NCBI GenBank assembly: GCA_913063265.1
Contig: CAJXZG010000020.1
Coordinates: 1 to 64,000, forward strand
Direction of reading: 5' to 3'
DNA length: 64,000 bases
Origin: an uncultured Prolixibacteraceae bacterium
GTDB lineage: Bacteria > Bacteroidota > Bacteroidia > Bacteroidales > Prolixibacteraceae
Of this stretch, positions 10,532 to 22,016 are shown piece by piece (the stretch's first letter is position 1; each line of letters begins with the position of its first letter). The notes below the pieces were generated by a model that did no database searches, was not told the DNA's origin, and saw only the letters and a list, made by a program, of their open reading frames with translations. Position numbers and translations under genes: made by a program.

Positions 10532-12838
10532 ATGAAATCCGAAGATCTCAAAAACTCGAATGAGTTGGAAAAAACTGAAAAATCTGAAATTAAAAAATCA
10601 GAAAAATCTGTAGAAAATAAAGAAACTGAAACTTCTAAATCAACAGAAAAAGTTGTTAAAGAAAAAGCTGAACCTGCTAAAGAACAAGAACAGGTAATCG
10701 AAGAAAGTTCTGAGCAACCAAAAAAAGAAGTTGAGAAAAAAGTGGAAGATAATTCTGTTGCAGCTGAGGAAAAAACAGAGGTAGAAAAAGCGGAAACGGA
10801 AAAACCTTTGAATCAAAAGGAGGAAAAGGCTGTCAAAAAAACAGAAGAACAAAAAGAAGAACCTCAGGACGAAAGTGTAAAACCTAATAAAAAGACTGAC
10901 AAAAAAGATCCGGAAGAAACTACAGAAAAAGAGAAATCGGAAGAATTATCAAATAAAAAGATTGACACAGAAAAAGAAATAGTAGCAACGGAAAAAAAGG
11001 AAGAATCAAAGACAGAAACAGAAAAAAAGGAAGAAAAGGAGGCAAAGGCAAAAGAAGAAAATAAAGAGGAACCGGTGAAGGAGGAGCCTGAAGCTGTGAT
11101 AGAAGAGAAAAAAGAAGTAGTTGATTATTCGAAATACAATCAGGTTGAATTGGTTAACGCAATGCGAGATTTAATCGATGAAGCTGAAGACAATGATATA
11201 AAAGCTGAAATAGACATAATAAAATCTGTTTTTTACAAGAAAAAGAATGAAGATCTCGAAAAAGTAAAAGCAGAGTTTATAAAAAATGGAGGTAAGGAAG
11301 AAGAATTTGTACCGGAAGAGAATCTTTATGAAAAAGATATTAAAGATTTGCTGAAAAAATATGGTCAGATTCGTAAGGAACAGCACAAACAACTTGATTC
11401 TGAAAAAGAAGAAAATCTAAAGAAAAAGTTTGAGATTATAGAAAAGATTAAGGGGCTGATTAATAATGAAGAATCTATAAATAAGACTTTTAACGAATTC
11501 AGGGATTTACAGCGTGAATGGCGTGAAATTGGTTTGGTTCCTCAGTCAAAAATGAAGAATTTATGGGATACCTATCATTTTCATGTCGAGAACTTTTATG
11601 ATTACATAAAAATAAACCGCGAGCTGCGTGACCTCGATCTCAAAAAGAACATGGAAGCCAAAATCGCTCTTTGCGAAAGTGCTGAGGAGTTAATGGTTGA
11701 ACCTTCTGTAATAAAGGCATTCAATACACTTCAAAAGTATCATGAGCAATGGCGTGAAATCGGTCCGGTACCCAGAGAAAACAAAGATGAACTTTGGGAA
11801 AGATTTAAAAAAATTACTTCAATAATCAACAAAAAACACCAGGAGTTTTTTGAATTAAAGAAAGAAGAACAAAAGAAAAACCTGGAAGCCAAAACAGCAC
11901 TTTGCGAAAAAGTTGAGGAAATTTGTAATTCACAAATTGAAGGATATAAAGATTGGGATAGTAAATCGAAGGAGCTTGTTGAACTACAGAAAGTTTGGAG
12001 AACCATTGGTTTTGCTCCCAAAAAGGAGAACAACAAAATTTATGAACGTTTCAGAACAGCATGCGATACATTTTTTAACCGCAAACGCGAGTTCTATTCA
12101 AAAAATAAAGAGATTCAGCAAAATAATCTCCAGCAAAAAATCGATTTATGTTTGCAGGCTGAGGAATTAAAGGACAGCACCGACTGGAAAAAAACAACAC
12201 AGGATTTTATAAATATTCAAAAGAAATGGAAAGAAATCGGGCCTGTGCCAAGAAAACATTCCGATTCGGTATGGAAACGTTTTAGAGGAGCCTGTGATTA
12301 TTTTTTTGAGAAAAAATCTGAACATTTCTCAGGTGTCGATTCTGCACAATTGGATAACCTTAAACTCAAGGAGGATTTAATTGCTGAATTGCAAAACTTT
12401 AAATCGTCTGATGATGTAAATGAAAATCTGAAATTATTAAAAGATATTCAACGAAGATGGTCTGAAATCGGACATGTTCCCTATAAAAAGAAAGACACTA
12501 TTCAACAAAAATTCAGAGAAGAAATTGATAAACTTTTTGATCAGTTGAATATTGATGAAGATAAACGCAATATGTTGAAATTTAAAACTAAAATGTCAAC
12601 ATTCTCTGAATCATCACGTGGTCAAAACAAAATGAGACTCGAGCGCGATAAGTATATGAATAAGCTAAAACAGCTTGAAAATGATTTGGTACTTCTTGAT
12701 AATAATATTGGTTTCTTTGCAAAAAGTAAAAATGCAGAAGCTTTAATTAAAGATGTAAATAAGAAGATTGAAGCTACAAGAAAAAGAATCGAATCTTTGA
12801 AGGAAAAAATCAGAGTTATCGACGAAATGGACGATTAA
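10532..12838 (+). CDS. DUF349 repeat protein with long charged N-terminal region
   Basis: 768 residues. The first about 200 residues are low complexity, nearly all Lys, Glu, Ser, Thr and Val, and likely disordered. From about 205 the protein is helical and contains about five DUF349 units, each recognised by a W..IG.VP signature (REIGLVPQSK, REIGPVPREN, RTIGFAPKKE, KEIGPVPRKH, SEIGHVPYKK). A coiled coil fills the last 100 residues. DUF349 proteins are widespread in Bacteroidota and cytoplasmic. Their biochemical role is not settled. The gene is monocistronic, with its own promoter and a strong terminator. Confidence 0.88.
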   Translation: MKSEDLKNSNELEKTEKSEIKKSEKSVENKETETSKSTEKVVKEKAEPAKEQEQVIEESSEQPKKEVEKKVEDNSVAAEEKTEVEKAETEKPLNQKEEKAVKKTEEQKEEPQDESVKPNKKTDKKDPEETTEKEKSEELSNKKIDTEKEIVATEKKEESKTETEKKEEKEAKAKEENKEEPVKEEPEAVIEEKKEVVDYSKYNQVELVNAMRDLIDEAEDNDIKAEIDIIKSVFYKKKNEDLEKVKAEFIKNGGKEEEFVPEENLYEKDIKDLLKKYGQIRKEQHKQLDSEKEENLKKKFEIIEKIKGLINNEESINKTFNEFRDLQREWREIGLVPQSKMKNLWDTYHFHVENFYDYIKINRELRDLDLKKNMEAKIALCESAEELMVEPSVIKAFNTLQKYHEQWREIGPVPRENKDELWERFKKITSIINKKHQEFFELKKEEQKKNLEAKTALCEKVEEICNSQIEGYKDWDSKSKELVELQKVWRTIGFAPKKENNKIYERFRTACDTFFNRKREFYSKNKEIQQNNLQQKIDLCLQAEELKDSTDWKKTTQDFINIQKKWKEIGPVPRKHSDSVWKRFRGACDYFFEKKSEHFSGVDSAQLDNLKLKEDLIAELQNFKSSDDVNENLKLLKDIQRRWSEIGHVPYKKKDTIQQKFREEIDKLFDQLNIDEDKRNMLKFKTKMSTFSESSRGQNKMRLERDKYMNKLKQLENDLVLLDNNIGFFAKSKNAEALIKDVNKKIEATRKRIESLKEKIRVIDEMDD

Positions 12839-12866: not shown

Positions 12867-12900
12867 AATGAGGCATTTTGTAGATTCAGAATGCCTCATT
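12867..12900. terminator. Terminator of the DUF349 gene, overlapping the end of the S24 regulator gene
   Basis: A perfect 11-base-pair stem (AATGAGGCATT against AATGCCTCATT) with a 12-base loop, followed by TTTTTT on the plus strand. Its right arm and loop also encode the last codons (NEAF, stop at 12886) of the convergent regulator. Confidence 0.8.
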
Positions 12901-13611
12901 TTTTATGTCGATTTCAAAACTGTTCCATGTTTCAAACTGCCATATTTCCAATACCTGAGAAAGAGAAATTTCGTAAGGTTCATAACTGCGATTGGAAGAA
13001 ACGAGTAAAAGTTTTTTGTCTTCCAGTTGACTGTAAACCAGTTTAAAAACAATGCCGTCGTTTTTGGTAACGATTATGTATGCTTTCCCGTTTTTGATGT
13101 GTTCCCAGTTTTCGAGGTACGAACAAGTAACCCATGATTTTTCGGGAATTGGCAACATTGAATCTCCCTGAATCTGGAAAGAACGGTAGGTTCTATTTTC
13201 CGGGAGAAAAGGTAGTTTAAACCTTGGTAAAGAGGAAATGAATTCCAAATCGCCGTAACTACTGGTATAACCGGCCTGTGCTTTTACCGGTACCATTTCA
13301 ATGTTTTCTTTGCCATTTTCATCGACAGTAATGGTAAGTAAACGCAGCTTATTGCCTGTAATATCCACATCAAAACCTTTCTCGATTTGTGATAGCTGAA
13401 ACTCAGAAAGTACTTCGAGTTTGTATTTTATCATGGCATCGAGCGAAACATTAAAATAATCCGATATTTTTATCAAGGTCCGAAATGGAGGTTGAACATT
13501 TCTTTCGTAACCCGAAAGGGTAGTACGTGTGATTTCTAATTCGGCAGCTAAATCGGTTTGCGATTTTTTTCGCCTCTGTCGTAGAAATTTTAAATTTTTA
13601 GAAAAATACAT
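12886..13611 (-). CDS. XRE-type repressor with S24 (LexA-like) autoprotease domain
   Basis: 241 residues. A helix-turn-helix of the XRE/Cro type covers about 1-62 (LAAELEITRTTLSGYERN), followed by a linker and an S24 peptidase domain. The LexA/UmuD elements are all present: a scissile Ala113-Gly114 (VKAQAGY), a Ser nucleophile at 151 (QGDSM) and a Lys base at 190 (GIVFKLV). Ser-to-Lys spacing is 39 (37 in LexA). Such repressors cleave themselves when RecA is activated by DNA damage, releasing target genes. It lies about 900 bases before dinB-dnaE on the opposite strand, so it is the natural candidate regulator of this damage-tolerance island. Direct control is inferred. Confidence 0.85.
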   Translation of the reverse strand: MYFSKNLKFLRQRRKKSQTDLAAELEITRTTLSGYERNVQPPFRTLIKISDYFNVSLDAMIKYKLEVLSEFQLSQIEKGFDVDITGNKLRLLTITVDENGKENIEMVPVKAQAGYTSSYGDLEFISSLPRFKLPFLPENRTYRSFQIQGDSMLPIPEKSWVTCSYLENWEHIKNGKAYIIVTKNDGIVFKLVYSQLEDKKLLLVSSNRSYEPYEISLSQVLEIWQFETWNSFEIDIKNEAF

Positions 13612-13662
13612 AATTGTAAAGTTTTATGTTATGCTTTGCAAACTGTGTGATTTTTTAATTTT

Positions 13663-13685
13663 ACACCGAGGCTTTAGCCCGGTGT
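13663..13685. repeat. REP-like hairpin
   Basis: Outer arms ACACCG and CGGTGT, a one-base bulge, and inner arms GGC and GCC closing a TTTA loop. It lies in the gap between the S24 regulator start and the transposase stop. Confidence 0.6.
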
Positions 13686-13710
13686 TTAAGTAAATTATCT
13701 TAAGTTCCAG

Positions 13711-13724
13711 GCTTTAGCCATTAA
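13711..13724. repeat. Left copy of 14-base inverted repeat flanking the transposase
   Basis: GCTTTAGCCATTAA. The reverse complement is found at 14158-14171, just outside the other end of the transposase gene, and a same-orientation copy at 14339. Confidence 0.65.
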
Positions 13725-14148
13725 AAACCTGAAAATGATATTTTGAAATGAACTCATTGTATTCTTCTTCCCAGGTTCTCTTTTTATGATGATCCTCTTG
13801 CTTTTCAATATAGTTTTTTACCGAAATAACCTGAGAATCACTAATACTTACTGCAAAGTATTCCTTTTGCCAATATAATTTTAATTGGCTCAAATTATTT
13901 TTATTAAACCAGTATGATGATTCTCCTTTAATCAATTGCATTACATTCTCAATTGATTGATTGTTTTTAAGACGAAATAGACAATGTACATGATTATTAT
14001 GACCACTTACTATTTCCATTAATATATCTTTCTTTATTGCATTTTTATGGATATGATTAAATAATTCTTGTCTTATATTTTGATTTAGTAGTGGCTTTCG
14101 GTTTTTTACCGTCCAAACTGCATGAATCCAAATTTTAACGTATGACAT
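13714..14148 (-). CDS. Solo IS200/IS605-type Y1 transposase (REP-associated type)
   Basis: 144 residues, the normal size of TnpA-like Y1 transposases. The HUH motif is His53-Val-His55 (SGHNNHVHCLF), and the catalytic Tyr is probably Tyr113 in KNYIEKQ. Both are present, so the protein may be active. No TnpB/IscB gene accompanies it. The palindromic repeats on both sides favour a REP-associated transposase (RAYT) over a complete IS200 element. It cuts and joins single-stranded DNA next to hairpins. It sits between the S24 regulator and dinB and breaks what may once have been a divergent regulator-polymerase unit. Confidence 0.88.
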   Translation of the reverse strand: MSYVKIWIHAVWTVKNRKPLLNQNIRQELFNHIHKNAIKKDILMEIVSGHNNHVHCLFRLKNNQSIENVMQLIKGESSYWFNKNNLSQLKLYWQKEYFAVSISDSQVISVKNYIEKQEDHHKKRTWEEEYNEFISKYHFQVFNG

Positions 14149-14157
14149 ATTTTCTTA

Positions 14158-14171
14158 TTAATGGCTAAAGC
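14158..14171. repeat. Right copy of 14-base inverted repeat flanking the transposase
   Basis: TTAATGGCTAAAGC, the exact reverse complement of 13711-13724. It begins 10 bases upstream of the transposase start codon. Confidence 0.65.
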
Positions 14172-14200
14172 CTTGTTTGGTAATGTAATTTATAATGTCA

Positions 14201-14220
14201 CACCGCCCTGAAGGACGGAG
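14201..14220. repeat. REP-like unit, copy 1
   Basis: CACCGCCCTGAAGGACGGAG, which can fold (CCG-CC-T against A-GG-CGG). A copy with one difference lies at 14388-14407. Confidence 0.6.
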
Positions 14221-14291
14221 CAAAAAAATCCAATTAAAATAAATTCTTATTATATATTGCTTCTTTTTTTGTATTTATCTCTACTTCTTTC

Positions 14292-14317
14292 TTCCACCAT
14301 GCTAAAGCATGGTGGAA
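14292..14317. repeat. Perfect 11-base-pair hairpin in the REP cluster
   Basis: TTCCACCATGC, loop TAAA, GCATGGTGGAA. The loop and inner bases echo the GCTAAAGC core of the flanking repeats. Confidence 0.6.
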
Positions 14318-14338
14318 AACTAATAGTAAAATCCACCG

Positions 14339-14354
14339 GCTTTAGCCATTAAAA
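14339..14354. repeat. Third copy of the GCTTTAGCCATTAA repeat
   Basis: GCTTTAGCCATTAAAA, same orientation as the copy at 13711 and identical over 16 bases including the AA that follows there. Confidence 0.6.
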
Positions 14355-14387
14355 GCCAGGGTCTGAATTGTTTTATAGTTATAGTAT

Positions 14388-14407
14388 CACCGGCCTGAAG
14401 GACGGAG
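14388..14407. repeat. REP-like unit, copy 2
   Basis: CACCGGCCTGAAGGACGGAG, 19 of 20 bases identical to 14201-14220. Confidence 0.6.
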
Positions 14408-14484
14408 TGAGAAATCATCTAAAACTCTATATCTTCCAACTTCCGACATCGATCATCCAACTTTTTTCTTTCAAATATAAAACA

Positions 14485-14530
14485 AAATGACTATATTATC
14501 AACATATAATTGACGACATAATAGTCATTT
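14485..14530. promoter_or_regulatory. Long inverted repeat in front of dinB, candidate operator
   Basis: Perfect 10-base arms AAATGACTAT (14485-14494) and ATAGTCATTT (14521-14530) are separated by 26 bases. Inside lies a smaller dyad, TCAA and TTGA separated by 7 bases. The right arm ends one base before the dinB ATG, so a bound repressor would block transcription or initiation. The S24 repressor nearby is a plausible binder, but I did not find the same sequence before umuD. Confidence 0.5.
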
Positions 14531-14531
14531 A

Positions 14532-15746
14532 ATGAAAAGACATATTGTACATCTTGATTTGGATACTTTTTTTGTTTCGTGCGAAAGACTGTTAGACAGA
14601 AGGTTAAATCAACTTCCGGTGCTGATTGGTGGTACGGGAGACAGGGGAGTGGTAGCATCATGCAGTTACGAAACCCGGCAATATGGTGTCCACTCGGGTA
14701 TGCCAATGAAAATGGCCAGGATTTTATGTCCCGATGCAATAGTAATACGCGGTAATAGTGGAGTTTATTCCAAATTTTCAGATATGGTTACCGATATTAT
14801 AAAAGAGCGATCACCACTTTTTGAAAAATCTTCCATTGATGAATTTTATGTTGATGTAACCGGTATGGATCGTTTCTTTGGAACTTACCAATGGGCAAAA
14901 GAGTTACGGGAAAAGATTATCAGAGAAACCATGTTGCCGATTTCCTTTGGACTTTCAATAAACAAAACGGTTTCGAAAGTCGGTACTTCAGAAGCTAAAC
15001 CCAATAATTTTATCAATATTCCGGATGGACATGAAAAAGGTTTTCTTGCACCACTTTCAGTAAAAAAAATACCTATGGTAGGCAATCAGACTTATCGTTT
15101 GTTGAGGAGTATGGGAGTTGAAAAAGTAAAAACAGTACAGGAAATGCCTGTAGAATTAATGGAGAGTGTATTAGGGAAAAATGGTATTTCACTCTGGAAA
15201 AAGGCACAGGGAGTTGATAATACACCCGTTATAGGCTGGAGTGAAAGAAAATCAATTTCGATGGAACGGACTTTTGAAAAAGACTCGACAGATATTCACA
15301 AATTAAAAAGCATTTTAATTTCGATGGCAGAAAACCTGGCTTTTCAGCTTCGTAGCGGAAATAAACTAACAGCTTGTATTTCTATAAAAATAAGGTACTC
15401 CGATTTTCAAACTTACAGTAAACAAAGGATGGTTCCTTATACATCGCTTGATCACACATTAATTAAAACCACATTGGAACTATTCGATAGTCTTTATCAG
15501 CGAAGAGTATTAATTCGACTTGTAGGAGTTAGGTTTAGTCATTTGGTGGGAGGAAGTTATCAGATGCGACTTTTTGAAGATTCTGAAAAACTGATAAAAC
15601 TATATCAGTCGATGGATTTGATAAAAAACAGGTTTGGACAAAAGGCAGTTAAACGTGCTGTAACTATGGGAGTAAAAAGTATTGGTGGAATGCCTAATCC
15701 TTTTAACGGACAACCACCGGTTATACCGGCACACAGAAGAGGGTAG
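14532..15746 (+). CDS. dinB: Y-family DNA polymerase (DNA polymerase IV type)
   Basis: 404 residues. The catalytic acids sit where E. coli Pol IV has them: Asp9/Asp11 in HLDLDTFFVSCE, and Asp103-Glu104 in SSIDEFYVD. The little-finger domain is present, and a clamp-binding motif QMRLF lies near the C-terminus. It copies damaged DNA with low fidelity. It is followed 95 bases later by a DnaE-type polymerase on the same strand. In ImuB-DnaE2 cassettes the Y-family partner is catalytically dead, but here the active site is intact, so dinB is the better name. A long inverted repeat precedes the start. Confidence 0.92.
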   Translation: MKRHIVHLDLDTFFVSCERLLDRRLNQLPVLIGGTGDRGVVASCSYETRQYGVHSGMPMKMARILCPDAIVIRGNSGVYSKFSDMVTDIIKERSPLFEKSSIDEFYVDVTGMDRFFGTYQWAKELREKIIRETMLPISFGLSINKTVSKVGTSEAKPNNFINIPDGHEKGFLAPLSVKKIPMVGNQTYRLLRSMGVEKVKTVQEMPVELMESVLGKNGISLWKKAQGVDNTPVIGWSERKSISMERTFEKDSTDIHKLKSILISMAENLAFQLRSGNKLTACISIKIRYSDFQTYSKQRMVPYTSLDHTLIKTTLELFDSLYQRRVLIRLVGVRFSHLVGGSYQMRLFEDSEKLIKLYQSMDLIKNRFGQKAVKRAVTMGVKSIGGMPNPFNGQPPVIPAHRRG

Positions 15747-15803
15747 ATGAGTAGAAAGGAAAAAGTTAAAAGGCAAAAGGAAAAAGAAATAGAAGAGTTA
15801 TAG
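15747..15803 (+). CDS. Possible 18-codon Lys/Glu-rich mini-ORF between dinB and dnaE
   Basis: ATG follows the dinB stop codon directly (TAGATG) and the frame encodes MSRKEKVKRQKEKEIEEL before a TAG. It could be translated by reinitiation and couple dinB to dnaE, or be chance in A-rich spacer. There is no other support. Confidence 0.2.
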   Translation: MSRKEKVKRQKEKEIEEL

Positions 15804-15841
15804 AAGTTTACAATTGTATAATTAAGTATTAGAATATAGAA

Positions 15842-18787
15842 ATGTTGTTGAATTGTCATACTTGGTTTAGCTTAAAATATGGCACAATTTCGCCGGAAAA
15901 TCTACTGGAAGTATTGTCAAACAGGGGATTTACAAATGTAGCATTAACTGATATTAATAATACTTCAGCAGCAATAGATTTTGTTCGCCTGGCAGAACAA
16001 TACAATATTAATCCGGTTTTGGGGATAGATTTCAGAAATGGAATAGAACAAAAATATATCGGACTGGCTAAAAACCTTGAAGGTTTTCGTGCGCTAAACG
16101 AGCACTTAACCAAATGGCAAGAAAATAAAAATTGTTTTGAAGATTCAGCTCCTGAAATTCGTGATACTTTTATTATTTATCCATTTAAGAAGAAAAAGTT
16201 CTGTAAGCTAAAAGAAAATGAGTTTGTAGGCATAAAATCAACAGAACTGGTAAAACTACCATTTTCCGATTGGAAAAATAATTTAGATAAACTGGTTGTT
16301 CTTCAGCCTTTTACATTTCGTCATAAACGTGACTATAATATTCACCGATTATTGCGTGCCATGGAAAACAATATTTTACTAAGTCGGCTTCCATTATCAG
16401 AGCAGGCATCCATATCTGAATCTATAATAACGAAACAGGAATTGGAAGAAGCGTTTAAAGGTTACCCGGAAATAGTTCATAATACAAAAAAAATACTTGC
16501 TGAATGTTTGGTTGAGTTTGAATATCGCACCAATAAAAACAAAAAATGTTTTTCAGGTTCTCATGCGGAAGATATTAAACTTTTAAGAAAGGAGTGTAAA
16601 AAGGGATTAAAATATCGTTTTGGAAAGCCATCAAAAGAGGTTATAGAAAGGATGGAGAAAGAGCTGAATATGATAAATGAAATGGGATTCAGTTCTTATT
16701 TTTTGATTAATTGGGATATTATCAGTTATGCACGCAATAAAGGATATCCTTATGTTGGACGTGGTAGTGGAGCAAATAGTATGGTAGCCTATTTGTTACA
16801 AATAACTAATGTCGATCCGATTGAACTGGACCTTTATTTCGAGCGGTTTATAAATCCATTCAGATCGAATCCCCCTGATTTTGATATTGATTTTTCGTGG
16901 ACTGACAGAGATGATATTACCAATTACATTTTTAATAAATACAGTTGGGAGAATACTGCGCTTTTAGGTTCGTATATAACATTTGAGCGAAAATCTGCAT
17001 TACGTGAAATTGGAAAAGTTTTTGGATTGCCGGCCGATGAAATAACACGATTACAGAAAAATCCAATTTTACATGAAAATGACCAGTATGGAAAACTTGT
17101 TCTGCAATATGGAAAATTAATTACAGGTATGCCAAGCCATTTGAGTATTCATGCCAGTGGTATACTGATTTCTGAGAAACCAATAAGCTATTACTCTGCA
17201 ACTCATATTTTGCCCAAAGGATTTCCAACTACTCATTTCGATATGCATGTTGCCGAAGATATAGGTTTGTATAAATTCGACATCCTCAGTCAGCGTGGTT
17301 TGGGAAAAATAAAGGATGCTTTGGAGATTATAAAAACTAACCGAAACAAAAAAATAGATATTAATAATATCAACTTATTTAAGGATGATCCCCGTGTAAA
17401 AGGATTGTTAAAAAAGGGGAAGGCAATTGCCTGTTTTTATGTAGAATCTCCTGCAATGCGAATGTTACTCACTAAATTAAAAGCTGAAGATTATAAACGT
17501 TTGGTTGCAGCCAGTTCTATTATTCGTCCGGGAGTGGCTAAAAGCGGAATGATGCGGGAATATATACTTCGTTTTCAGGATAAAAATCGACGGGAAAAAG
17601 CTAAAAAAGAATTACCTGAACTTTATGGAATTCTGGAAGAGACTTTTGGTGTAATGGTTTACCAGGAAGATGTTATAAAAGTGGCGCATTATTTTGCCGG
17701 ACTTACTTTAAGTGAAGCAGATATATTAAGACGGGGAATGTCATGGAAATTCAGGGAGAGAAATGATTTTCAGGTTGTAAGAGATAAATTTTTCAGCAAT
17801 TGCAGAACTAAGGGATATTCTGAAAACACCATTTCTGAAATATGGAAACAAATTGAAAGTTTTGCCAATTATGCTTTCTCAAAAGGGCATTCGGCAAGTT
17901 ATGCAGTCGAAAGTTTTCAGGCACTGTACTTAAAAGCATATTACCCCAGAGAATATATGGTAGCCACGCTAAATAACGGCGGTGGTTTTTATTCGCCTGA
18001 ACTTTATTTTCATGAAGCAAAACTGCATGGAGCAAAAACCGAGTTACCCTGCATAAACAGGAGTCAATGGCTAAACTCAATTCAAAAAGAAACAATTTTT
18101 ATAGGTTTTTATATATTGCGAGAACTGGAACACAATGTCGCTGAAAATATATTAAATGAGCGTACTATAAATGGGGCTTATAAAAGTTTAAAGGATTTTG
18201 TAAAACGTGTTCAAATATCGCTTGAGCAGCTAATAATCCTGGTTCGTTCGGGTGCTTTCAGGTTTACGGGGAAGAATAAAAAAGAATTGCTTTGGGATGC
18301 TCATTATTTGTTAGGGCATGCAAAAAAAACTGTGCCAGAAAAAACACTCTTCGAAACTCAAACACGGGAGTATAATTTACCTGAATTATGGAAACATGAT
18401 TTGGAAGACACCTTTGATGAGATAGAATTACTTGGTTTTCCGATTCGTTCGCCATTTGGAATGCTTGAATCGTCAGTACCTTCGCAGTTGAAAGCTTCGC
18501 AGTTGCCGAAAATTGTTGGCAAAAACGTTGAAATTGTAGGTTATCTTGTACATCGTAAACCAACCAGAACAAGCAACGGTAAAATAATGTATTTTGGCAC
18601 ATGGCTTGATTTGGCAGGGGATTGGTTGGATACCGTTCATTTTCCAGATTCAGGAAACCGCAATCCTTTTAACGGACCAGGGTGTTACCTGATTCGCGGT
18701 AAAGTTGTTGAAGAATATGGCTTTTACAGTATTGAAACTCAATGGATGAATCGATTAAAGTATAAGAACCTCGAGGATTTGAATTAA
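15842..18787 (+). CDS. DNA polymerase III alpha subunit, error-prone (DnaE2-like)
   Basis: 981 residues, shorter than the replicative DnaE (about 1150-1250) and close to DnaE2. An N-terminal PHP domain begins NCHTWFSLKYG, where the second PHP histidine is replaced by aromatic residues, suggesting a non-active PHP. The palm carries PDFDIDFSW (around residues 345-351) and YKFDILSQRGLGK. Helix-hairpin-helix and OB-fold regions follow, the latter in the last 120 residues (VGYLVHRKPTRTSNGKIMYF). In other bacteria DnaE2 works with ImuA/ImuB in damage-induced mutagenesis. Here it follows an active dinB and no imuA is present. Start ATG 15842 gives the expected N-terminus. Confidence 0.88.
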   Translation: MLLNCHTWFSLKYGTISPENLLEVLSNRGFTNVALTDINNTSAAIDFVRLAEQYNINPVLGIDFRNGIEQKYIGLAKNLEGFRALNEHLTKWQENKNCFEDSAPEIRDTFIIYPFKKKKFCKLKENEFVGIKSTELVKLPFSDWKNNLDKLVVLQPFTFRHKRDYNIHRLLRAMENNILLSRLPLSEQASISESIITKQELEEAFKGYPEIVHNTKKILAECLVEFEYRTNKNKKCFSGSHAEDIKLLRKECKKGLKYRFGKPSKEVIERMEKELNMINEMGFSSYFLINWDIISYARNKGYPYVGRGSGANSMVAYLLQITNVDPIELDLYFERFINPFRSNPPDFDIDFSWTDRDDITNYIFNKYSWENTALLGSYITFERKSALREIGKVFGLPADEITRLQKNPILHENDQYGKLVLQYGKLITGMPSHLSIHASGILISEKPISYYSATHILPKGFPTTHFDMHVAEDIGLYKFDILSQRGLGKIKDALEIIKTNRNKKIDINNINLFKDDPRVKGLLKKGKAIACFYVESPAMRMLLTKLKAEDYKRLVAASSIIRPGVAKSGMMREYILRFQDKNRREKAKKELPELYGILEETFGVMVYQEDVIKVAHYFAGLTLSEADILRRGMSWKFRERNDFQVVRDKFFSNCRTKGYSENTISEIWKQIESFANYAFSKGHSASYAVESFQALYLKAYYPREYMVATLNNGGGFYSPELYFHEAKLHGAKTELPCINRSQWLNSIQKETIFIGFYILRELEHNVAENILNERTINGAYKSLKDFVKRVQISLEQLIILVRSGAFRFTGKNKKELLWDAHYLLGHAKKTVPEKTLFETQTREYNLPELWKHDLEDTFDEIELLGFPIRSPFGMLESSVPSQLKASQLPKIVGKNVEIVGYLVHRKPTRTSNGKIMYFGTWLDLAGDWLDTVHFPDSGNRNPFNGPGCYLIRGKVVEEYGFYSIETQWMNRLKYKNLEDLN

Positions 18788-18908
18788 AACTCGCATTTAT
18801 TACCAATTTGATTACAATAATTTCTAATTTATTCTAATTTTATTTTACGATTTTATTAACATTATACTTTCGTTTTTACTGTTATTTGTAGGTTATAGCG
18901 TTTTTTAT

Positions 18909-18938
18909 ATTGTTAATAACTTTTTTTGATTACATTTG
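18909..18938 (+). promoter_or_regulatory. Promoter of the unknown 141-residue gene
   Basis: ATTG at 18909-18912, 18 bases, then TACATTTG at 18931-18938, a full TAnnTTTG match. The start codon is 33 bases downstream. Confidence 0.55.
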
Positions 18939-18971
18939 CATTTGTTGTAGTAATCATTTAAAGCAGGGCCC

Positions 18972-19397
18972 ATGATGGAAACTTTTGCCAGGTTAATCCA
19001 CAAAACAAAGATTACATATTTGCCAACGAACTTTCCTGTTCATTATTACGGATTACCGGATGGTAAGGTCTATATTATTTATGCCCGTTTTTATGAAATA
19101 AAATTTCAGCGCTCCGGCCTTGAGTTTGTTTTGGCAGAACATCAGGAATTTTCTTACAATTACACCGAAGGTAAATTAAAGTTGAATGGGAAAACCGACA
19201 GCAGATATCCGGTATATCCTGAAATGGTTGACAAACCAAATCCCAAAATTAAAATTAAAAAGGTAACCAGGGATTTTAAATCTTTTGCAGAAGCCATTGC
19301 GCAGCTGGATAAAAAGGCAAAAACCCAGTTAGATACAGCACCTGAGAACATTGAAATTGTTCCGGATAAAGACAAAGATCAACTTTCAATTGCTTGA
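18972..19397 (+). CDS. Unknown protein inside the translesion island
   Basis: 141 residues. I do not recognise the family. An alternative start is the second Met one codon later. It has no signal peptide or membrane helix. The N-terminal 90 residues look like a small alpha/beta fold rich in Tyr and Phe (HYYGLPDGKVYIIYARFYEI). The C-terminal 50 are Lys- and Asp-rich and may be flexible. It has its own promoter, follows dnaE by 184 bases, and ends 10 bases from the SRAP gene on the other strand. Position suggests a role in damage tolerance, perhaps as a partner of the polymerases, but nothing in the sequence proves it. Confidence 0.65.
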   Translation: MMETFARLIHKTKITYLPTNFPVHYYGLPDGKVYIIYARFYEIKFQRSGLEFVLAEHQEFSYNYTEGKLKLNGKTDSRYPVYPEMVDKPNPKIKIKKVTRDFKSFAEAIAQLDKKAKTQLDTAPENIEIVPDKDKDQLSIA

Positions 19398-19407
19398 TGA
19401 AATAACA

Positions 19408-20217
19408 TTAAAAAAGGGTAGGAGTTCCTCCTCTCAAATCCACACTTTTTTCAAAATATTCAGGATACTTTTCTAATAAACTGCTTAACTCCTGGTAATG
19501 GTAATAAACTGTTACACCCGGATCATCTTCATATTGTAGTCGTGGATTAATCTTCTTTATCGGCGTAGCAATTAATTTGTCAGCATCAAATGGTTCAAAA
19601 TAGCTTTTTATCTCATCTTCATTGAGGTTTTTATCAAGCCATTTCATTGCTTTTCCTGGATCTATTATCAAAGGCATCCTCTTTTTTTTGTTATGAACAA
19701 GTTCCATCAATTCGTTGGCAGGAGTTGTAATTATAGCATAATTATGAATTATTTCACCTGTATTTCTATCCGTAAATTTCTCCCAAATACCTCCAAAAAC
19801 AAACATTCCGCCATCTTTTAGTGCTACGTAAAACGGGTATTTTTCGGAATTGGATTTCCCTGGATTTTTATGCCTCCATTCAAAAAAGCCACTACATAAA
19901 ACAAGACATCTTTGTTTTTGTATGGCTTTACCAAATAACCGACTTTCAAAAAGATTTTCTGCTTTGGCATTTAAAGTATTGTATTGATTTAAAAATGCAG
20001 CTGCCTTTTCAAGATTTGGAGTATTTGCCGATACAAATCCCCAACGAAACATTTGGATATTTTCAGGATTATCGTCGCTGATAACCGGCATCAAAGGAAA
20101 ATCAAAACCTTTTACAAACTGTTTGTCATCAAAAAGGCTCAGTTGTTCTTCGGTAATGATTCCGTTTTCGATTAAAGCTTTTGGATTGGTTTTAACAACC
20201 GCGTAATAGAAACACAT
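19408..20217 (-). CDS. SRAP domain protein (HMCES/YedK type abasic-site crosslinker)
   Basis: I take ATG 20217 (269 residues), not the upstream in-frame ATG at 20241, because it gives Met-Cys-Phe. After Met removal Cys2 becomes the N-terminal nucleophile that forms a thiazolidine link with abasic sites in single-stranded DNA. Other family motifs are CSGFFEWRH (catalytic Glu), YAIITTPAN, and KKRMPLIIDP, preceded by His in LVHNKKK. It protects abasic sites at replication forks. It is third in a umuD-umuC-SRAP row with a 39-base gap, so it is probably co-induced with Pol V. Confidence 0.9.
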   Translation of the reverse strand: MCFYYAVVKTNPKALIENGIITEEQLSLFDDKQFVKGFDFPLMPVISDDNPENIQMFRWGFVSANTPNLEKAAAFLNQYNTLNAKAENLFESRLFGKAIQKQRCLVLCSGFFEWRHKNPGKSNSEKYPFYVALKDGGMFVFGGIWEKFTDRNTGEIIHNYAIITTPANELMELVHNKKKRMPLIIDPGKAMKWLDKNLNEDEIKSYFEPFDADKLIATPIKKINPRLQYEDDPGVTVYYHYQELSSLLEKYPEYFEKSVDLRGGTPTLF

Positions 20218-20256
20218 AATTTTTTGAATTACAAATAACAAAATCCAAATTACAAA

Positions 20257-21507
20257 TTAAATTCTCACCTCAATAATTTCATTCCAGTTTGTAGTGTATC
20301 GTTGTGAAAGCTTTTCCTGTCTGAGCTTCCATTTTTTTCCATCCCCCTGAACAGCAAGTTTTATTTTATCTCTTCCAAATTCATAGTTTAACTTATCTAC
20401 AGCATTTCGCAAATTTCTGAATTTTTCGCGGTTGCTTTTGTCAAAAAGATTGGCTTGCACCTGCTTTTCGCTCTGAAGCCCATCGACAATTACACCTGCT
20501 TTTTTGTAGTTGTAACTTGAGCTGTAAATCTGATTTAAGCAATACAAAGCGTGTTTTACCAGTTCAATATTTTCATTGCTTGCAACCGGTAAGGAAATGG
20601 TTTTACTTTTGTTGATTTGAACTTCATTTTGATTAAAAGGATCGGTATGAATAAAAACTGTAAGCAGATTTGCTACAGAATGTTGCATGCGCAGTTTTTC
20701 CGCGCATCTAACTGCATAAGTTGATACTGCTTCTTCCAATAATTCTATTTTCGATGTCTTTTTTCCAAACGCCCTTGTGGTTGCGATTGCTTTTTTTGAA
20801 GGAACTGTCAATTCAAGAAGGATACAGGATTCGCCAAGTAACTCACGTTTTATTCGCATTCCCATTACCTTCATTTTAGCACGAAGCCAGTTATCATCCA
20901 GCAGGGTAAAATCGTAGGCAGTGCTAATCTTATTCCGTTCTAAAAGTTTAAAATATTGTCCACCAATACCCCAAATTTTATTTACAGGAGTATTTCTGAT
21001 TACTGAATCACGGTGTTGGTCATTTCTGATAATAAAAATACCACCACTTAATTTTGCTGCTTTATTTGCAATTTTGGCCAAAGTTTTTGTTGGGCCAATT
21101 CCAACCGAAATTGGAATACCCGTATTCCTTCTTACTGTATTTTTGATATTATTGGCCAATGTATTCAGGTCTCCGGAAAAACCGGATAAATTCAGAAATG
21201 CTTCATCGATGCTGTAAATTTCTATTTCGGGTACAAATTGGGTGAGAGTCTCGGTTACTCTTGCAGACATATCGCCATACAATGTATAATTCGAGGAAAA
21301 AACATATACATGATTTTCTTTCAAAAACCGGGTTTTGAGAAATGCGGGTTCTGCCATTTTTAAACCAAGCCTTTTTGCTTCGTCTGAGCGTGAAATAATA
21401 CAACCATCGTTGTTTGACAGCACAACCACCGGTTTTCCTTCAAGATGTGGATTAAATACACGCTCGCAGGAAACATAGAAATTATTACAATCGACTAAGG
21501 CAAACAT
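20257..21507 (-). CDS. umuC: DNA polymerase V catalytic subunit
   Basis: 416 residues. The Y-family core shows FALVDCNNFYVSCERVFNP at the start and SIDEAFLNL for the second catalytic pair. The C-terminus contains the UmuC-specific domain and a clamp motif QANLF. UmuC inserts nucleotides opposite lesions together with processed UmuD and RecA. It follows umuD by 65 bases and precedes SRAP by 39, all on the minus strand. Length is normal (E. coli 422). Confidence 0.95.
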   Translation of the reverse strand: MFALVDCNNFYVSCERVFNPHLEGKPVVVLSNNDGCIISRSDEAKRLGLKMAEPAFLKTRFLKENHVYVFSSNYTLYGDMSARVTETLTQFVPEIEIYSIDEAFLNLSGFSGDLNTLANNIKNTVRRNTGIPISVGIGPTKTLAKIANKAAKLSGGIFIIRNDQHRDSVIRNTPVNKIWGIGGQYFKLLERNKISTAYDFTLLDDNWLRAKMKVMGMRIKRELLGESCILLELTVPSKKAIATTRAFGKKTSKIELLEEAVSTYAVRCAEKLRMQHSVANLLTVFIHTDPFNQNEVQINKSKTISLPVASNENIELVKHALYCLNQIYSSSYNYKKAGVIVDGLQSEKQVQANLFDKSNREKFRNLRNAVDKLNYEFGRDKIKLAVQGDGKKWKLRQEKLSQRYTTNWNEIIEVRI

Positions 21508-21572
21508 GTCTGAAAAGATTAAAGTTGGAATCCCGAAGGCTGAATTATCAAGATTAAAACCACATTCATGTT

Positions 21573-22016
21573 CTAATGTTTTTTTATAGAGTAAGTTACC
21601 ACTCCCCAGATGGTTACGTCATATTTAGCTTGAATCTCAATAGGGGGGTAGTTGGGATTTTCTGGCTTCAGAAAGAACTTACCTCTTTGTTTCTCAAGTC
21701 GTTTTACCGTAAATTCTCCATCAACTAAACATACCACAATCGAACCTTCAGATGGCATTTTAGATCTGTCAATTATTAATAAATCCCCATCTGAAATTCC
21801 CGCCAGTGTCATTGAATCACCGCGTACGCGTGCATAAAAAGTAGCGCTTTCGTTGCTTATCAGTTCTTTATTTAAATCTAACCTGGCTTCTGAATAGTCA
21901 TCAGCGGGAGACGGGAATCCAGCTGAAACCGTTGCTTCAACCAGTGGCAATTCAGAATAAGTTTCTACCCTTGGTTGAAATAAGTCCAATTTGACTATAT
22001 TTTCGTCAGATCTCAT
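21573..22016 (-). CDS. umuD: UmuD-like S24 autoprotease, Pol V accessory subunit
   Basis: 147 residues with no DNA-binding domain, as in UmuD. The cleavage site is Ala32-Gly33 (TVSAGFPSP). The catalytic pair is Ser68 (RGDSMT) and Lys105 (FTVKRL), spaced 37 as in E. coli UmuD. RecA-stimulated self-cleavage gives UmuD', which activates UmuC. It is the first gene of the umuD-umuC-SRAP operon. The upstream gap holds a small dyad ATTTGC-TG-GCAAAT at about 22032-22045, a possible operator. Confidence 0.93.
   Translation of the reverse strand: MRSDENIVKLDLFQPRVETYSELPLVEATVSAGFPSPADDYSEARLDLNKELISNESATFYARVRGDSMTLAGISDGDLLIIDRSKMPSEGSIVVCLVDGEFTVKRLEKQRGKFFLKPENPNYPPIEIQAKYDVTIWGVVTYSIKKH

Follow-up and report, generated by a model that had tools for sequence, protein, structure and literature searches.

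The cluster of DNA-damage-tolerance genes analyzed here, about 9 kb long, lies in a window of 64,000 nt from an uncultured Prolixibacteraceae bacterium (positions 1 to 64,000 of contig CAJXZG010000020.1, assembly GCA_913063265.1). Its core appears to be a self-contained SOS divergon, in which the gene for a repressor of the XRE-S24 type and the polymerase genes dinB2-dnaE2 are oriented divergently. The neighboring umuD-umuC-SRAP block (SRAP, SOS response associated peptidase) seems to have been drawn in by an operator, and SOS control in this genome would be split between two sister repressors. On the strength of sequence comparisons, we assign this reading a probability of about three in four. 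The window, by which we mean the whole stretch, is contig C20 of genome G000 (5.49 Mb, 94% complete). The comparison set comprised 37 genomes of the genus and the wider search set 61 genomes. Altogether, 27 genus loci carrying the window-type dnaE were fetched, as were the best 80 named loci of the phylum with such a gene, where short contigs lower the gene counts.

Tandem operators upstream of dinB2

Two copies of a 17-bp palindrome of the type TGACTA-N5-TAGTCA are present upstream of dinB2, and the second one ends 4 bp before the ATG. When 28 dinB2 upstream regions (25 from the genus, including the window, and three from the order) were scored with the consensus TGAYKAWWWWWTMRTCA, the two top sites lay at a distance of exactly 23 bp in 26 of them, a spacing that letter shuffles gave in 3%. 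The two exceptions were L062 and L049; in the latter, the assumed start cuts the second site, and the tandem scan finds the pair in its genome (G030). Throughout the genus, only a few bases separate the end of the operator pair from the dinB2 ATG. The distance is larger in L064 (34 bases) and L065 (49 bases), where the half-site is TGATTA. Among more distant relatives, Flavobacteriaceae often have a single site of the ACTAC-N5-GTAG type, and the spacing of the GGA-N5-TCC sites in Dyadobacter (L206) is 19 bp. The 23-bp spacing holds in the genus and in some relatives, not phylum-wide.

A tandem pattern (23 bp spacing, at most one mismatch) was found in 23 of the 37 genus genomes, once in each, and 22 of these matches are located at dinB2. 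The remaining one, in G001 (L293:1500-1992), lies at a contig end, upstream of an open reading frame (ORF) with a sub-threshold match to dCTP deaminase-like proteins.

The same operator type at umuD

A palindrome pattern derived from the dinB2 sites, at a time when the umuD site had not yet been noticed, matches the 5.49-Mb genome perfectly at seven places: at dinB2, at the umuD start, and at five positions inside ORFs elsewhere. The chance that one of the six other palindromes falls within 300 bp of the candidate starts in this cluster is about 3 in 10,000. Because dinB2 and umuD of the window share one operator type, XRE-S24 probably governs both. The joint regulation that the preliminary description of this DNA had proposed thus has good support from the sequence of the window; it does not extend to the umuD of G020, which has no such operator.

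A strict pattern has only two matches in the window's genome, at dinB2 and umuD. Its reversed control has more (three per strand), so that the strict pattern is simply rare. Across 12 genomes, the strict pattern was found 29 times, with 13 matches at dinB2, one at umuD, two at a SRAP-family gene of G017 and 13 elsewhere; in 5 of the 12 genomes there is exactly one match, and it is located at dinB2. A genome-wide search with one mismatch was uninformative (108 places vs. 243 for the reversed control). The SRAP-family gene of G017 lies on another contig than the cluster and is preceded by two operator palindromes 24 bp apart that end 2 bp before its ATG. This gene (L281:7480-8325) has a called start of Met-Phe, not Met-Cys, and lies near a tyrosine-recombinase-like gene.

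The recA gene was considered as a further target and was rejected. With two relaxed operator patterns, none of 30 recA upstream regions (20 from the genus, 10 from the order, every locus oriented) had a site, apart from one loose match in L110. Without a recA site, XRE-S24 appears to be no global LexA.

The repressor and its paralogue

XRE-S24 combines a CI-type helix-turn-helix (HTH) domain (HTH_3, PF01381; 54.1 bits, cut-off 23) with a Peptidase_S24 domain (30.8 bits, cut-off 23.3). Its cleavage and catalytic residues had been described as intact, and the Ala113-Gly114 pair and Ser151/Lys190 are indeed invariant across 11 aligned rows. A profile search against the PDB, which was set aside, gave as top matches HTH proteins that align over the N-terminal part. 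In the repressor tree, from which the published reference proteins are absent, the window protein is separated from the Dyadobacter regulators, whose promoters carry GGA-N5-TCC sites, and does not clearly group with L177 and L182, which have CTAA-N5-TTAG promoters. This tree and the DnaE tree below are quick trees with SH-aLRT support only. The canonical LexA domain PF01726 had no match in the window's genome (94% complete).

A second XRE-S24 protein of the same genome is encoded on contig C16. It is 47% identical to the first, retains the Ala-Gly, Ser and Lys motifs, and its gene diverges from those for a radical-SAM protein (TIGR03916, scored at 667 bits) and for a protein of the TIGR03915/DUF4130 type. 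Two or more repressor matches were found in 23 of the 37 genus genomes, one match in 10, and none in 4. From the larger set of repressor matches, 20 paralogue places were fetched; in 19 of them the repressor lies beside the radical-SAM gene, and the twentieth (L336) is of the ImuA-linked type. All 19 shared promoters contain a palindrome of the type TGATAA-N5-TTATCA (17 with 6/6 pairs, two with 5/6), in a scan restricted to matches starting with TGA, NGAT or TGG. A second, weaker site (10/12 letters) was present in the 18 promoters of the 19 that could be tested, 24 bp away in 16 of them and 23 bp away in two; in the window's genome the distance is 24 bp. The two paralogues are associated with different operators.

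Exact TGATAA-N5-TTATCA sites numbered 29 in 12 genomes and were found at the paralogue promoter in 11 of the 12. This operator is less exclusive than the polymerase operator. Further matches in G000 (contigs C24, C109, C126 and C132) were discarded, as no repair gene could be recognized beside them by eye. In G007 (L356:2429-2924), a site extends to the ATG of a small ORF with no recognized family, which is a possible extra target of the second repressor.

The suggestion that XRE-S24 replaces LexA for this set of genes fits its probable control of the cluster and the lack of PF01726 in the genome. It does not fit as a general role, given the result for recA and the second paralogue with its own operator.

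A conserved core and a sporadic block

The preliminary description had treated the cluster as a single island that should recur in related genomes. This applies to the core, which is linked in 23 of the 27 genus loci, but not to the full 9-kb set, since umuD is present in only 2 of the 37 genus genomes. The dinB2 gene adjoins dnaE in 25 of the 27 loci, and the other two (L043 and L060) are contig ends; in the 23 loci, XRE-S24 is located divergently beside dinB2. In several relatives the core lies next to the same upstream ORF as in the window (10532-12838) or next to gyrA. In the best 80 named loci of the phylum, dinB2 was found in 65, a relative of XRE-S24 in 31, SRAP in 10, umuD in one and canonical LexA in one. 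Related cassettes are present on plasmids: SRAP and an XRE-type regulator divergent from dinB-dnaE in Emticicia, a "LexA family regulator" divergent from dinB-dnaE in Chryseobacterium, and SRAP-dinB-dnaE in Adhaeribacter. The cluster is therefore composed of two parts, a conserved XRE-S24/dinB2-dnaE2 core and a sporadic umuDC-SRAP block.

Within the wider set, umuD was found in 13 of the 61 genomes. In the genus, the two genomes with umuD are that of the window and G020, and in both, dnaE2 is followed by the genes for SRAP, umuC and umuD, which are on the other strand; a gene for a protein of 141 amino acids intervenes in the window only. In G020, a canonical LexA is encoded between umuD and a CBASS-like operon (TIGR00498, 162 bits, cut-off 111; PF01726 above cut-off), and a related LexA of L236 (L236:3917-4567) lies directly upstream of dinB2-dnaE2. 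Because canonical LexA occurs in both of these positions, regulators may have been exchanged at these loci. No shared palindrome was recognized before the L236 LexA or between LexA and umuD of G020. Both canonical LexA proteins, the one beside umuDC and the CBASS-like operon (L038:3524-4153) and that of L236, have PF01726 plus S24, although a published survey of complete Bacteroidetes genomes detected no such protein (PMC8565304).

Genes and sites of the cluster

All genes named in the preliminary description are present and open, and the concentration of translesion functions that it noted is real (Table 1). Its gene list was incomplete, as it omitted the gene for an IS200-like Y1 transposase.

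Table 1. Features of the damage-tolerance cluster, in positions of the window
Feature	Position	Strand	Basis
XRE-S24 repressor, non-canonical LexA type, 241 amino acids	12886..13611	-	ORF and domain search, alignment, tree
IS200-like Y1 transposase gene	13714..14148	- (as repressor)	domain search
TAnnTTTG (TATATTTG), candidate -7 box of leftward promoter to repressor	14472..14479	-	sequence reading
Operator site 1, TGACTATATTATCAACA, right half decayed in window	14488..14504		palindrome scan
Operator site 2, TGACGACATAATAGTCA, intact	14511..14527		centre 23 bp from site 1
dinB2, Y-family polymerase, Bacteroidetes PolY2 type	14532..15746	+	domains, motifs
DnaE2B-type C-family polymerase, 981 amino acids	15842..18787	+	domains, motifs, tree
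Unknown 141-amino-acid protein, genus-specific paralogue family	18972..19397	+	ORF, genome search
SRAP	ORF 19408-20241, Met-Cys start at 20217	-	domain search
umuC, Pol V catalytic subunit type, DUF4113 tail with RecA-NT-like motif	20257..21507	-	domains
umuD, S24, Ala-Gly pair in SAGFPSP	21573..22016	-	domains
Operator site at umuD, TGACGAAAATATAGTCA on - strand, overlaps codons 3-9 of called ORF	21992..22008		pattern scan

The dinB2 protein retains the Y-family catalytic motifs and has a clamp-type motif, QMRLF. Its C-terminal RecA-NT-like tail MDKIEKSYGKGSIMR aligns with the N-terminus MDLIKNRFGQKAVKR of the genome's own RecA. In DnaE2B, the PDFDIDF and KFD motifs are retained, and the PHP metal site is degenerate, with HxH and the following Asp altered in comparison with replicative DnaE. 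The earlier designation of this polymerase as DnaE2-like is correct in a wide sense, but it is not of the ImuC type: against the ImuC-type NCBIfam model it scores 454 bits (cut-off 939), compared with 1351 for the ImuC of G011. In addition, a tree of 31 DnaE proteins, built without the published authors' DnaE2B reference set and with one flagged long branch (L273), places 20 proteins of the window kind on one side of a branch with an SH-aLRT support of 100, apart from four ImuC and six DnaE1 proteins. For a few of these 20 rows (L061, L066 and L218), the fetched stretch contains no dinB2. No imuA was detected among the eight cluster proteins scanned.

Several related arrangements were observed. 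An ImuC-type dnaE is present instead in the sister genomes G018, G011, G031 and G032 (L071-L074), near another relative of XRE-S24 that is 40-42% identical; of these genomes, G011 is the one in which imuA and imuB were read. A plasmid of Desulfosarcina, from another phylum, carries genes for lexA, DUF72, a Y-family polymerase and DnaE in a row (L273), and its DnaE adjoins the window-type group on the long branch. Furthermore, the window groups with Marinifilaceae in the DnaE tree and G009 with L236, and the repressors of the window and of G009 group together. The repressor and polymerase genes may thus have different histories.

Short repeats of the GGCTTTAGCC type are found around the transposase gene, at 13670, 13710, 14163 and 14338. 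A Y1 gene occupies the same spot in L047, L050, L057 and L063, always in the orientation of the repressor, and the transposase gene may be co-transcribed with the repressor (region 13660-14420). No operator-type site was found in the 110 bp directly upstream of the window's repressor gene; the sites remain at dinB2, beyond the transposase gene. The TAnnTTTG box, which we take to follow the promoter consensus, is consistent with a leftward repressor promoter, though the repressor gene sits past the transposase gene.

The 141-amino-acid protein has matches in 31 of the 61 genomes, all within the genus and often in several copies per genome. It was rejected as a conserved part of the module, as among the fetched genus loci only G017 has it beside dnaE2.

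Discussion

We infer that the cluster would operate as follows. XRE-S24 dimers would bind the two tandem 17-bp palindromes, which lie between the leftward repressor promoter and the dinB2 start, and would repress transcription in both directions. Upon damage, single-stranded DNA would be loaded with RecA, and the RecA filament would trigger self-cleavage of XRE-S24 at Ala113-Gly114, leading to expression of dinB2-dnaE2. The Y-family polymerase, held by RecA through its RecA-NT-like tail and by the clamp through QMRLF, would insert a nucleotide opposite the lesion, and DnaE2B, with its degenerate PHP site, would take over the extension. The umuD-umuC-SRAP genes would enter the same regulon via the operator at the umuD start. 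The regulon would be small and lack recA, and the paralogue with the TGATAA-N5-TTATCA operator would serve the radical-SAM/DUF4130 operon.

Several observations weigh against this reading. Some concern the operators: the strict pattern was drawn up with the umuD site already known, 13 of its 29 matches lie elsewhere, mostly inside reading frames, and one of the perfect palindromes outside the cluster lies within a RecQ-like ORF. The reversed control of the tandem pattern was found in 6 of the 37 genomes, and the tandem pattern itself misses the window's own genome, where half of site 1 has decayed. Palindromes spaced by 23 bp are present in only five (L166, L169, L177, L182 and L202) of 24 intergenic regions from named loci, with the half-sites TGACTA, TGATTA, TGCTAA and TGTTTA, and weak operator sites elsewhere in the genome are conceivable. 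For umuD, the site could be chance coding sequence, given its overlap with codons 3-9, and because the operator is absent from the homologous umuD region of G020, the case for joint control of umuDC is based on a single genome. Other observations concern the repressors. The presumed promoter of the repressor gene is on the far side of the transposase gene. Of the two dinB2 loci without a divergent repressor, one (L015) starts inside dinB2, and in the other (L041, G027) the repressor is located on a different contig from dinB2-dnaE2. The HTH region of the G017 island repressor reads in two frames (L037:12200-12420), which may reflect a broken gene or an assembly error; as this repressor looks broken, the case of the G017 SRAP gene is weakened. 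Finally, 14 of the 37 genus genomes have fewer than two repressor matches, including G016, G017 and G020, which have one match each and a dnaE2 near that of the window.

The most obvious alternative is that two unrelated units happen to be neighbors: XRE-S24 would control its divergon, umuDC-SRAP would be under its own control, and the palindrome at umuD would be coincidental coding sequence. The sporadic occurrence of umuD, the umuDC of G020, which lies beside a canonical LexA without an XRE-type site, and the position of the operator within umuD codons would all be expected in that case. A coincidence would, however, have had to produce one of only seven perfect palindromes in 5.49 Mb at this start, with the five outside the cluster all in ORFs and a chance of about 3 in 10,000, and the window's genome has no LexA-domain match. 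We consider mere proximity unlikely. A global role of XRE-S24 as a non-canonical LexA, with a full SOS regulon of which the cluster is only the visible part, is less probable still: 0 of 30 recA upstream regions have a site, 5 of 12 genomes have a single strict match, at dinB2, and the window's genome encodes a second paralogue with another operator. On the other side, large regulons have been reported for relatives (PMC8565304), the strict patterns would not pick up weaker sites, and G017 and G001 have one unlinked tandem site each.

A remnant of a prophage or mobile element, with XRE-S24 as a phage immunity repressor and the cluster as cargo, would account for the CI-type HTH, for the IS200-like gene and short repeats inside the cluster, and for the related cassettes on the Emticicia and Chryseobacterium plasmids. 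Yet the core is conserved across the genus, in several relatives beside the upstream ORF or gyrA mentioned above, and the flanking ORFs, which were judged by eye without a phage-family search, are not phage-like. This origin is clearly disfavored and very improbable.

Returning to the divergon with its recruited umuDC-SRAP block, SOS control would be split in this genome and probably in the 23 members of the genus that have two or more repressor matches. A more general reading is evenly balanced in our view. In many genomes of the genus, the SOS response would have two branches under paralogous CI-like repressors, each with its own type of tandem operator and chiefly guarding its own divergent operon: TGAC[TG]A-N5-T[AC]GTCA for the mutagenic polymerases, and TGATAA-N5-TTATCA for the radical-SAM/DUF4130 repair operon. 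The polymerase branch would recruit stray damage genes when an operator arises at or near their start codons, as for umuDC-SRAP here, the SRAP-like gene in G017 and perhaps the dCTP deaminase-like gene in G001. The odds of this generalization are reduced by the 14 genomes with fewer than two repressor matches and by the apparently broken copy of G017.

LexA-type responses are usually pictured as one repressor with one regulon; here, two sister repressors with separable operators appear to be at work. With such a split, error-prone synthesis could be tuned apart from repair. In addition, sporadic umuDC genes may be wired in two ways, via the operator type of the local repressor or beside a canonical LexA.

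Comparison with known systems

XRE-S24 proteins that act as LexA in Bacteroidetes have been published, as have the dyad-N5-dyad sites bound by regulators of this non-canonical LexA family; mitomycin C induces the regulator of E. anophelis together with the error-prone polymerase gene opposite it, and canonical LexA was not found in complete Bacteroidetes genomes (PMC8565304). That paper states that the regulators are absent in the order Bacteroidales. Its main text does not name Marinilabiliales, the order in which NCBI places Prolixibacteraceae, or Prolixibacter, Draconibacterium or Marinifilum, and it contains neither words in "cooperativ-" nor "helical turn". The system described here shares with that family, as portrayed there, the CI-type HTH (PF01381), the S24 domain with Ala-Gly and Ser-Lys, the dyad-N5-dyad palindrome in the shared promoter, the divergent error-prone polymerase, and a genome without canonical LexA. 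It differs in the half-site (TGACTA/TGACGA, not CTAA or GGA), in the two sites 23 bp apart, and in having few strict sites, none of them at recA.

Pairs of PolY and DnaE2(B) without ImuA are known from Bacteroidetes (PMC6511836, for the Cellulophaga algicola system; PMC12926913), and the short DnaE2 of this phylum has been noted (PMC3919608). An active-type PolY with a RecA-NT-like tail, a non-ImuC DnaE2 and no imuA are features that the window shares with the putative DnaE2B-PolY-RecA mutasome (PMC12926913). The passages on this system (PMC12926913, PMC6511836) do not treat the operator, the umuDC link or paralogous repressors; some UmuC-like polymerases have a SRAP-like link (PMC12926913). 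A search for literature on SOS or LexA in Prolixibacteraceae, Bacteroidales and Marinilabiliales, with subscription papers and supplements outside its scope, found nothing further. The core is thus of a known kind. Not described in the literature searched, and apparently new, are the form and tandem spacing of the operator, its narrow reach, the use of two repressors in this genus and the addition of umuDC.

The pairing of a Y-family protein with a DnaE-type polymerase also resembles the ImuA-ImuB-DnaE2 mutasome, but here there is no imuA, the Y-family partner has catalytic motifs, and the DnaE belongs to another group. The operators of lambda CI are 17 bp long and arranged in tandem, with centres 23-24 bp apart. 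The window has tandem 17-bp operators with the same centre spacing and a repressor with a CI-type HTH; unlike those of lambda, its operators are located at bacterial damage genes. With tandem sites 23-24 bp apart and a CI-type HTH, the repressor may bind in a phage-like manner, a possibility that is directly testable.

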